Shown here: in pieces, positions 30,099 through 32,661 of the stretch
Layout: each line of letters begins with the position of its first letter
Position numbering within the stretch: the stretch's first letter is position 1
Position numbers and translations under genes: made by a program
NCBI RefSeq assembly: GCF_022843985.1
Contig: NZ_JALHMP010000003.1
Location: 124,001-188,000 of the forward strand
Source of the DNA: Phreatobacter sp.
GTDB lineage: Bacteria; Pseudomonadota; Alphaproteobacteria; Rhizobiales; Phreatobacteraceae
Length of the DNA: 64,000 nt
Reading direction: 5' to 3'
Notes under the pieces: model-generated
Told to the model about the DNA's origin: nothing
Database searches by the model: none
Seen by the model: the letters and a program-made list of their open reading frames with translations, nothing else

Positions 30099-31325
30099 TC
30101 AAATCCGCACGATCTTGGCGTCCACCGGCCATTCCAGCGTCTTCAGCGCCTGGGCGAGGTCCTCGATCAGGTCGTCGGGATCCTCGAGGCCGACGGAGAG
30201 GCGCAGCAGCCCGTCGGTGATGCCCATTTCCAGCTTCTCGGCAGGGGTGAAGCGGTCGTGCGTCGTCGTCGGCGGATGGGTGATGAGGCTCTTGGAATCG
30301 CCGAGGTTGTTGGAAATCCTGATGATGTTCAGCGCGTTGGCGACGCGGAAGGCGCCGGCCTTGCCGCCCTCGACCTCGAAGGCGATCAGCGTCGAGCCGC
30401 CGCGCATCTGGCGCTTGGCGAGCGCGTATTGCGGATGGTCCTTGCGGCCGGGATAGATGACCTTGGTAATGCCCGGCAGCGCGGCCAGCGCATCGGCAAT
30501 CCTGGCCGCGCTGGTCGTCTGGCGTTCGACGCGCAGCGGCAGGGTCTCCAGGCTCTTCAGCACCACCCAGGCGTTGAACGGGCTCATGGCCGGGCCGGTC
30601 TGGCGCAGGTACTGGTAGACATTGTCCTGGATGAACTGCCTCGAGCCGAGGATGACGCCGCCGAGGCAGCGGCCCTGGCCGTCGATGTGCTTGGTGGTGG
30701 AATAAACCACGCAGTCGGCGCCGAGGGCGAGCGGGCTCTGCATCATCGGCGTGGCGAAGACGTTGTCGACGGTGACCTTGATGCCGCTCTTCCTGGCGAT
30801 CGCGACGATGGCGGCGATGTCATAGACCTCGAGGGTCGGATTGGTCGGGCTCTCGAGGAAGAAGACCTTGGTGTTGGGACGCACCGCCGCTTCCCACTGG
30901 GCGAGGTCGGCGCCGTCGACAAGGGTCGACTGCACGCCGAAGCGCGGCAGCAGCGTCTCGATGATGTAGCGACAGGACCCGAACAGCGCCTTGCAGGCCA
31001 CCACATGGTCGCCGGCGGAGAGCTGGCCGAACATGGCGGCGTTCACCGCGGCCATGCCCGTGGCGGTCGCCTTGGCGGCCTCGGCCCCTTCGAGCAGGGC
31101 GATGCGGTCCTCGAACATCTGGACCGTCGGGTTGGAGAAGCGGGCATAGATGAAGCCGGCATCCGTGCCCTTGAAGCGGGCCTCGGCCTGTTCGGCACTG
31201 TCATAGACATGGCCCTGGGTGAGGAAGAGGGCCTCCGACGTCTCGCCGAATTCCGAACGGAGGGTCCCGCCATGGACGAGGCGGGTGGCCGGCCGCATGC
31301 GGGAGGGATCAAAGGGCTTCTTCAT
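30099..31325 (-). CDS. metZ: O-succinylhomoserine (or O-acetylhomoserine) sulfhydrylase
   Basis: A 408-residue Cys/Met-metabolism PLP enzyme. It makes homocysteine directly from acylhomoserine and sulfide. PLP-binding K212 lies in YSTTKHIDGQGR, with the family DNVFATPMMQSPL and SVGLEDPDDL segments. The DGQGRCLGG segment fits MetZ rather than cystathionine enzymes. Its leader contains a SAM-II riboswitch and a terminator, which together identify it as a SAM-repressed methionine-pathway gene. Two in-frame ATGs are close together; 31325 begins the usual MKKPFDPSRMRPATRLVHGG end. Confidence 0.95.
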   Translation of the reverse strand: MKKPFDPSRMRPATRLVHGGTLRSEFGETSEALFLTQGHVYDSAEQAEARFKGTDAGFIYARFSNPTVQMFEDRIALLEGAEAAKATATGMAAVNAAMFGQLSAGDHVVACKALFGSCRYIIETLLPRFGVQSTLVDGADLAQWEAAVRPNTKVFFLESPTNPTLEVYDIAAIVAIARKSGIKVTVDNVFATPMMQSPLALGADCVVYSTTKHIDGQGRCLGGVILGSRQFIQDNVYQYLRQTGPAMSPFNAWVVLKSLETLPLRVERQTTSAARIADALAALPGITKVIYPGRKDHPQYALAKRQMRGGSTLIAFEVEGGKAGAFRVANALNIIRISNNLGDSKSLITHPPTTTHDRFTPAEKLEMGITDGLLRLSVGLEDPDDLIEDLAQALKTLEWPVDAKIVRI

Positions 31326-31368
31326 CGCATCGCTCCTCGTGGCGCGGCGGCGGGACACTTGTCCCCCG

Positions 31369-31406
31369 AAAAAACAGAACCCGACCTGGCAAAAGCCGAG
31401 GCCGGG
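31369..31406 (-). terminator. Attenuator terminator in the metZ leader
   Basis: On the minus strand CCCGGCCTCGG (31406-31396) pairs with CCAGGTCGGG (31389-31380) around a 6-nt loop, with one G-U pair and one bulge. It is followed by TTCTGTTTTTT (31379-31369). The left arm overlaps a competing hairpin in which GGCCGGG of the riboswitch (31426-31420) pairs with CCCGGCC (31406-31400). Confidence 0.7.
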
Positions 31407-31419
31407 TTGATCCCATGCG

Positions 31420-31478
31420 CCCGGCCTTTTAGCGAATTGTTTAGCGTGGTTCGCAAGCCGGCCGGCCAAATCTCCACG
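31420..31478 (-). promoter_or_regulatory. SAM-II riboswitch controlling metZ
   Basis: The minus-strand leader carries the SAM-II layout. Stem P1 is CGTGG/CCACG, the loop begins AGATTTGG, GGCTTGC precedes the P1 3' strand, and CGCTAAAAGGCCGG follows. The last part pairs back with GGCCGGCC in the loop to form the H-type pseudoknot. The GCTAAA-N-CGCTAAAAGG pattern is diagnostic of the class. Binding of S-adenosylmethionine should lower metZ expression. The promoter start predicted from 31490-31518 lies only about 5 nt upstream. Confidence 0.9.
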
Positions 31479-31489
31479 TCGTGGTGAGG

Positions 31490-31518
31490 TTGGTAGGGCG
31501 GCGGTGCGCAGGCGTCAA
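31490..31518 (-). promoter_or_regulatory. Promoter of the metZ riboswitch transcript
   Basis: On the minus strand TTGACG (31518-31513) and the weak -10 TACCAA (31495-31490) are 17 nt apart. The start near 31483 fits the 5' end of the SAM-II aptamer. Confidence 0.45.
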
Positions 31519-31534: not shown

Positions 31535-31553
31535 GACGAACGTTTCGTTCGTC
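31535..31553. promoter_or_regulatory. Inverted repeat directly upstream of dcd
   Basis: GACGAACG (31535-31542) and CGTTCGTC (31546-31553) form a perfect 8-bp inverted repeat around TTT. It ends immediately before the GGAG of dcd (31554-31557). It could be an operator or a leader hairpin that hides the ribosome-binding site. Confidence 0.45.
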
Positions 31554-31566
31554 GGAGTTGGGGCGC

Positions 31567-32661
31567 ATGCAGGACGACATGGTTCAGGGCATTCTGCCCG
31601 CACAGGCGATCGAGGATCTGGTGGCGCGCGGCGCGATCCGCATCGCCCGGGCGCTCGATGCCGACCAGGTTCAGCCGGCCTCCCTCGACTTGCGCCTCGG
31701 CACCCGCGCCTATCGCATCCGGGCGAGTTTCCTCCCCGGTCCCCATACGACGGTGGCCGACCGGCTGCAGGCTGTCGCCCTGCACGAGATCGACCTGTCG
31801 CGCGGCGCGGTGCTGGAGACGGGCTGCGTCTATCTGGTCGAACTGATGGAGGGGCTGGCCCTGCGCGGCGGCATTTCGGCCACCGCCAATCCGAAGAGCT
31901 CGACCGGCCGGCTCGACGTCTTCACCCGCGTCATCCTCGACCGCGCCCAGGCCTTCGACACGATCCCCGCCGACTATGAGGGGCCGCTCTATCTCGAAGT
32001 CTCGCCGCAGACCTTCCCGATCCTCGTGCGCGCGGGCTCGCGCCTGTCGCAGATCCGCTTCCGCCGCGGCCGCGCCGACCTGACGCTCGACGAGGTCAAT
32101 GGCCTGCAGGAGACCGAGCGGCTGGTGGATACCGGCACGCCGGTGGTGGGGCCGGTCGGCATCGCGGTGACCATCGACCTCCTCGGCGAGGCCTGGGGCG
32201 GGCTCCTCGGCTACCGTGCCAAGCGCCATTCCAGCGTCATCGACGTCGACAGGAAGGCCGCCCACGACGTGCTCGACTTCTGGGAACCGATCCAGGAGCG
32301 CGGCAAGGGCGAGATGATCCTCGACCCCGACGAGTTCTATATCCTCGCCTCGAAGGAGGCCGTGGTGGTGCCGCCGGATTATGCGGCGGAGATGCTGCCC
32401 TTCGATCCCCTCGTCGGGGAATTCCGCGCCCATTATGCCGGCTTCTTCGACCCCGGCTTCGGCCATGCCACCGCCGGCGGCCGCGGCGCGCGCGCCGTGC
32501 TCGAGGTGCGCTCGCGCGAGGTGCCCTTCATCCTCGAACACGGGCAGATCGTGGCGCGTCTCGTCTATGAACGGATGACCGAGCGGCCGCGCACGCTCTA
32601 TGGACAGTCGGGCTCGAACTACCAGGCGCAGGGCCTGAAGCTCTCCAAGCATTTCCGCTGA
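31567..32661 (+). CDS. dcd: 2'-deoxycytidine 5'-triphosphate deaminase, long two-domain form
   Basis: A 364-residue enzyme converting dCTP to dUTP for thymidylate synthesis. It is about twice the usual E. coli length. The first half holds QPASLDLRLG, SSTGRLDVFTRVI and the active-site-like PADYEGPLYLEVSPQTFPI. The second half, from about 190, repeats a dUTPase-like fold with the PF06559-type segment LLGYRAKRHSSVIDVD. This duplicated form is typical of alphaproteobacteria. ATG 31567 follows GGAG by 9 nt; a TTG at 31558 abuts the GGAG and is unlikely. Divergent from metZ. Confidence 0.88.
   Translation: MQDDMVQGILPAQAIEDLVARGAIRIARALDADQVQPASLDLRLGTRAYRIRASFLPGPHTTVADRLQAVALHEIDLSRGAVLETGCVYLVELMEGLALRGGISATANPKSSTGRLDVFTRVILDRAQAFDTIPADYEGPLYLEVSPQTFPILVRAGSRLSQIRFRRGRADLTLDEVNGLQETERLVDTGTPVVGPVGIAVTIDLLGEAWGGLLGYRAKRHSSVIDVDRKAAHDVLDFWEPIQERGKGEMILDPDEFYILASKEAVVVPPDYAAEMLPFDPLVGEFRAHYAGFFDPGFGHATAGGRGARAVLEVRSREVPFILEHGQIVARLVYERMTERPRTLYGQSGSNYQAQGLKLSKHFR

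Follow-up and report, generated by a model that had tools for sequence, protein, structure and literature searches.

In the literature on SAM-II riboswitches, the view that these elements control translation is based on the metX element from the Sargasso Sea, and the original prediction for the DNA analyzed here, a 64,000-nucleotide stretch of a Phreatobacter genome (referred to as the window), treated the class as one often described as translational. The published record does not support that emphasis, as in the available text of two papers (PMC1273637, PMC2258182) the predictions for SAM-II in the α- and β-proteobacteria most often involve terminators, which were noted there already in 2005 and 2007. 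For metZ of Sinorhizobium meliloti, the available text of a 2022 study (PMC9373788) predicts SAM-induced Rho-independent termination and reports that in vivo, at high SAM, a leader RNA about 100 nt long (the RZ sRNA) goes up and the metZ mRNA goes down. According to the same text the shift is also observed with stronger metK induction, and both promoter activity and RNA stability change as well; within it an in vitro termination assay on S. meliloti metZ was not found, and “in vitro transcription” occurs only for a spike-in RNA. Elsewhere, according to the part of PMC4239095 that could be consulted, SAM_alpha precedes metY in 26 of 30 genomes from two α-proteobacterial lineages. The literature covered, which mostly excluded subscription journals, yielded no covariation model for SAM-II that treats aptamer and platform jointly; the accessible text of PMC13273304 names the fluoride, ZTP, lysine, TPP, purine, SAM (RF00162) and glmS classes, and that of PMC3723493 mentions SAM-II only in a reference title.

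The leader of metZ in Phreatobacter had been proposed to contain a SAM-II riboswitch, and the covariance-model search bears this out. Upstream of metZ, a minus-strand match to the Rfam model RF00521 scores 65.9 bits, where the gathering score is 36; the match covers the whole model (positions 1-79 of 79) with an E-value of 1.4e-12 over the window, and it is the one SAM-II match in this genome and hence the sole such element found there. The P1 hairpin (CGTGG/CCACG) and the pseudoknot P2 (CCGGCC/GGCCGG), which the loop of P1 forms with the 3′ strand of the aptamer, are both present. The conserved GCTAAA core (Table 1) presumably takes part in contacting SAM, as in the SAM-II crystal structure. 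The GGCCGGG sequence, designated strand B, is indeed the 3′ strand of the aptamer, and its exact complement CCCGGCC, strand C, is found downstream where the original prediction had placed it. Pairing of strands A and B gives the pseudoknot, that of B and C the antiterminator as first proposed, and that of C and D the terminator; the three pairings are mutually exclusive as a matter of arithmetic, since the strands have bases in common. As modeled, the antiterminator thus shares strands with both the aptamer and the terminator.

An intrinsic terminator with a U-rich tail, likewise anticipated, is located between the aptamer and metZ, and an automatic scan calls the same one. Its stability over positions 31406-31369 is −20.5 kcal/mol (z −4.74), with none of 200 shuffled sequences equally stable. 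Strand B pairs with the arm of its own terminator at all seven positions (7/7, score 7.0), while against the 18 other terminator-like arms in the window, a set from which its own arm is excluded, scores go up to 6.0 with a median of 3.5. Rarity of the GGCCGGG sequence was also considered as evidence and rejected, with 55 matches against 48 ± 8 expected; as the bare 7-mer is common, the weight rests on its place in the aptamer and the terminator.

The gene under control starts at position 31325 and is identified as metZ by both NF005696 (689 bits, cut-off 675) and TIGR01325 (554.4 bits, cut-off 510.05). The Shine-Dalgarno-like GAGGAG in front of it lies outside the aptamer, 81 nt past strand B and 30 nt past the U-tract, with the strong terminator in between, and no ribosome-binding site is found inside or beside the 3′ strand of P2. 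Direct occlusion of the ribosome-binding site is therefore not expected, which makes it very improbable that metZ is controlled at translation by a pseudoknot hiding that site, as in the Sargasso Sea metX SAM-II, even though this is the mechanism described for the structurally best studied SAM-II RNA and strand B is G-rich.

Upstream of the aptamer, a weak promoter consisting of TTGACG and TACCAA separated by 17 nt is possible judging by the sequence, and it would start the RNA on the edge of P1, at about position 31484; the automatic promoter scan reported none at the metZ leader. Just upstream of the possible −35 box, at positions 31535-31553, there is a palindrome GACGAAC-N5-GTTCGTC that occurs in exactly one mismatch-free copy per genome in 12 of 12 Phreatobacter genomes, always beside the metZ SAM-II leader, with the five central bases varying among the genomes. 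The divergent gene on the plus strand (31558-32661) encodes a dCTP deaminase (NF005734), and the palindrome looks like a candidate operator for the divergent dcd/metZ pair.

Table 1 Features of the metZ leader in Phreatobacter (window coordinates).
Feature	Coordinates	Strand	Basis or remark
Possible promoter, TTGACG (31518-31513), 17 nt, TACCAA (31495-31490)	31490..31518	-	by eye
SAM-II aptamer	31409..31487	-	RF00521, full model
P1 5′ strand, CGTGG	31474..31478	-	Rfam alignment and folding
P1 3′ strand, CCACG	31445..31449	-	folding
Strand A, CCGGCC: P2 pseudoknot 5′ strand, partner of strand B	31460..31465	-	
Conserved core, GCTAAA, directly 5′ of strand B	31428..31433	-	
Strand B, GGCCGGG: P2 3′ strand and antiterminator 5′ strand	31420..31426	-	
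Strand C, CCCGGCC: terminator 5′ arm, complement of strand B	31400..31406	-	
Strand D, GGTCGGG: terminator 3′ arm	31380..31386	-	
Terminator tail, TTCTGTTTTTT, with U6 at 31374-31369	31369..31379	-	
Extended antiterminator helix (predicted); pairs 31433-31432/31390-31389, 31429-31420/31400-31391, 31418-31417 and 31415-31412/31406-31401	31389..31433	-	P1 enforced; replaces the 7-bp B-C helix, other register
Shine-Dalgarno-like GAGGAG	31333..31338	-	by reading the sequence
metZ, O-succinylhomoserine sulfhydrylase, controlled gene	30099..31325	-	NF005696 and TIGR01325

Taken together, the SAM-II riboswitch very probably functions as a transcriptional OFF switch, or attenuator, for metZ. By the tests run it is a genuine and well-formed SAM-II attenuator, and the folding models make the following mechanism likely. 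RNA polymerase would start near position 31484, and P1 would be the first element to fold. When SAM is present, strands A and B would close the pseudoknot and leave strand C free to pair with strand D, and the terminator thus formed would stop transcription at the U-tract, at about position 31369, giving an RNA of roughly 115 nt. At low SAM, strand B would instead pair with strand C over 7 bp and later form a longer helix that extends into the loop of the terminator; strand B would in this way hold on to the terminator 5′ arm until the polymerase has passed, and metZ would be transcribed. The proposed switch, in which the pseudoknot and the antiterminator have the 3′ strand of the aptamer in common and SAM should accordingly favor the terminator, is supported by the computations and by the described homologues.

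Growing transcripts were folded with P1 enforced, and the SAM-bound pseudoknot was represented by blocking strands A and B, a stand-in that does not include the energy of SAM. With the pseudoknot left free, the 7-bp B-C helix has a probability of 1.00 in transcripts ending at 31400 and 31398 and of 0.94 in those ending at 31396, and then fades to 0.25 at 31394 and 0.02 at 31392. In these folds the B-C pairing of the original prediction is only the first antiterminator, replaced by position 31392 with the longer helix, which is the main antiterminator predicted. The extended helix keeps hold of the terminator 5′ arm and absorbs AAA within the conserved GCUAAAA strand; an alternative antiterminator fold with the same core is also predicted under the same constraint. 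Again with P1 enforced, the terminator is almost absent at transcript ends 31386 or earlier (P ≤ 0.02), and at ends 31380-31370 its probability rises from 0.34-0.83 with strands A and B free to 1.00 when both are blocked. For the RNA spanning 31484-31369 the antiterminator is predicted at −39.4 and the terminator at −38.9 kcal/mol, P1 being enforced in both; the antiterminator is thus favored by 0.5 kcal/mol with a 5′ end at 31484, and the favored state shifts with the assumed 5′ end, as a start at 31487 gives a terminator probability of about 0.75-0.85.

Folded without constraints, the whole leader reaches −49 kcal/mol; in this fold the terminator is present, P1 is disrupted and the two strands of the pseudoknot form a nested pairing. 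An ON fold in the absence of ligand is predicted for growing transcripts with P1 enforced, and not for the full-length leader without constraints. At equilibrium in this energy model, termination would occur with or without SAM. Since the terminator is present in the unconstrained fold, the ON state must be co-transcriptional, and the “clean” transcriptional switch that had been envisaged is not supported by these folds. We infer from the models that the ON state would depend on folding of P1 ahead of the other elements and on a decision taken while the polymerase is between about 31400 and 31370. A co-transcriptional decision of this kind is usual for terminator riboswitches.

The extended helix raises a further idea, which we hold only tentatively and consider rather doubtful: the SAM-free antiterminator, by spanning the AAA of GCUAAAA via a U-run in the terminator's own loop, may dismantle part of the ligand-binding core and so lock SAM out until the polymerase has passed. 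In folds with P1 enforced, extension of the antiterminator through the AAA (P > 0.5) is predicted in six of the seven distinct Phreatobacter leaders, the exception being L040; across the order it is predicted in 22 of 91 leaders, versus 10 of 91 after the loop letters were shuffled once.

Among the Phreatobacter genomes the strands of the switch are well preserved. All 12 leaders of this type have the same strands B and C, strand D reads GGTCGGG in seven and GGCCGGG in five of these, both of which can pair with strand C, and metZ follows the leader in 11 of 12 cases, with the twelfth contig (L038) ending before the gene. A second SAM-II element (L008, G008:C1:1643318-1643395) is present in one Phreatobacter genome, located before the start of a metA-like gene, as judged by eye; no terminator is called for it, and it may therefore act on translation. 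A separate feature of the 12 leaders is a predicted hairpin CGGGGGACAAGTGTCCCG directly after the U-tract (31351-31368 of the minus strand in the window), the flanks of which vary among Phreatobacter genomes yet remain paired (AAGGGGACAAGTCCCCTT, CCGGGGGACAAGTCCCGG). Its energy compared to shuffled sequences is unremarkable in the one Phreatobacter leader reported (L036, z −0.74), and further genomic copies of the hairpin GGGGACAAGTCCCC are not in excess, with 11 per strand against 21 and 23 for the reversed control. Several related leaders (L090, L094-L096, L098, L103 and L105) have a hairpin of the TGACC..GGTCA type instead, and evidence for a general post-U-tract hairpin in the leaders of the order is weak, with z < −2 in 17 of 96 leaders versus 10 of 138 coding windows.

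On a broader scale, SAM-II is found in all 12 genomes of the family (all belonging to one genus), and in 50 of 61 nearer relatives, the own genome counted. At the level of the order, 239 of 297 genomes have it, 235 of them above the cut-off. The 149 loci examined comprise the 69 best matches and a further 80 hand-picked among the matches listed, and high-scoring loci are favored in this set. At least five of the six P2 pairs are present in 146 of these loci, the register having been picked for best pairing; the three misses include the misparsed L128. A terminator-like hairpin is found within 170 nt in 102 of the 149 loci, made up of 84 of 119 preceding metZ-like genes and 18 of 30 others. The terminator finder called none in the remaining 47 loci, of which some, such as L003, L089 and L097, show a hairpin by eye whose tail is short or interrupted, and others may be translational. 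Some leaders of the order, L179, L181, L140 and L183, have much longer terminator hairpins, of about 50 nt and −28 to −32 kcal/mol; the first two of these leaders have GGCCC in place of GGCCG in strand B.

The complementarity between strand B and the downstream sequence was evaluated in 139 distinct leaders, which remained of 148 leaders, L128 being left out, once those duplicated over their first 70 nt were removed. With no gaps allowed, the best pairing between the 7-nt strand B and the next 60 nt has a mean score of 5.53 across these leaders, kinship ignored, compared to 4.35 ± 0.09 for dinucleotide shuffles, none of 100 of which reach the observed value. When the strands are permuted between leaders, kinship again being ignored, the score is 5.17 ± 0.06 and none of 500 permutations reach 5.53; individual scores of 6.5 or 7 are found in 61 of the 139 leaders. 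A second set of 91 leaders was derived from the 96 distinct ones with a called terminator by removing those where the terminator is too near strand B. Here a 6-nt strand B scores 4.47 against the terminator arm versus 4.18 ± 0.05 when permuted (0 of 1000), and the 71 distinct strand-arm pairs score 4.17 versus 3.88 ± 0.07 (0 of 1000), both comparisons likewise ignoring kinship. Coordinated changes are seen in L006 and L026, where strands A, B and C read CCGGTC, GACCGG and CCGGTC, respectively, and in L129, with CCAGCC, GGCTGG, CTAGCT and AGCTAG for strands A to D; the pairing of strand B with the arm is weaker (3.5 of 6) in L027, L167 and L169.

In 38 of the 91 leaders the terminator is predicted to gain more than 0.3 in probability when strand B is blocked, compared to 6-11 with strand B shuffled and 20-28 with strand B swapped between leaders (five runs each), and in 45 of the 91 the terminator probability exceeds 0.5 even without blocking. 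Strand B pairs with the terminator arm before strand D exists in 79 of 91 leaders, against 41-55 with shuffled and 68-74 with swapped strands; this count is only weakly specific because GGCC is self-complementary and GGCC-rich arms resemble one another. Reverse-complemented terminators were tried as a control and rejected as not discriminating (70 versus 79 of 91).

These comparisons bear on another interpretation, according to which a SAM-II aptamer is followed by a largely SAM-independent terminator, the leader chiefly yields a short RNA and the metZ level is set by promoter activity and RNA stability. Such an arrangement would fit the unconstrained fold, where the terminator forms without SAM, as well as the available text on S. 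meliloti (PMC9373788), where the short RNA far exceeds the mRNA in either medium, and where a drop in promoter activity and stabilization of the RNAs are seen at high SAM. A terminator independent of the aptamer would, however, not need B-C complementarity, which exceeds that of shuffled and permuted sequences, and the predicted switching is more frequent than with a shuffled strand B, so we consider this interpretation improbable. Termination might also be combined with SAM-dependent stabilization of the RNA in an incoherent dual regulation, as reported in the accessible text for S. meliloti metZ (PMC9373788); by analogy this is possible for Phreatobacter, if less likely than not, and it would add to the attenuator mechanism, not replace it.

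SAM-dependent attenuation of metZ transcription thus remains the preferred explanation, and in this the Phreatobacter leader is an ordinary SAM-II system: the same arrangement has already been described in related bacteria, the unusualness that had been ascribed to it does not hold, and the overall picture of SAM-II is unchanged. What the locus offers is plain strand sharing in a compact four-strand attenuator, which would be a convenient model for timing SAM binding against termination during transcription, while the order-wide comparison provides quantitative support for a mechanism mostly predicted so far. The Sargasso Sea metX SAM-II (2QWY) belongs to the same aptamer class but differs in being described as hiding a ribosome-binding site and not as controlling a terminator. 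The Gluconobacter oxydans SAM-II leader likewise precedes an O-succinylhomoserine sulfhydrylase gene, and RNA-seq coverage suggests termination within it, as far as the available text of PMC5756330 goes; it comes from another α-proteobacterial group, and a test with SAM was not found in that text. The SAM-II of Agrobacterium and relatives (the metA element, RF00521) shares P1, P2, a promoter just upstream and, in many cases, putative intrinsic terminators, whereas the RNA probed in the accessible part of that study derived from metA and omitted the proposed terminator stem (PMC1273637). The metZ SAM-II of S. meliloti differs from that of Phreatobacter in genus and sequence, while the two are alike in aptamer class, in the gene controlled and, according to the available text of PMC9373788, in the predicted SAM-induced terminator.
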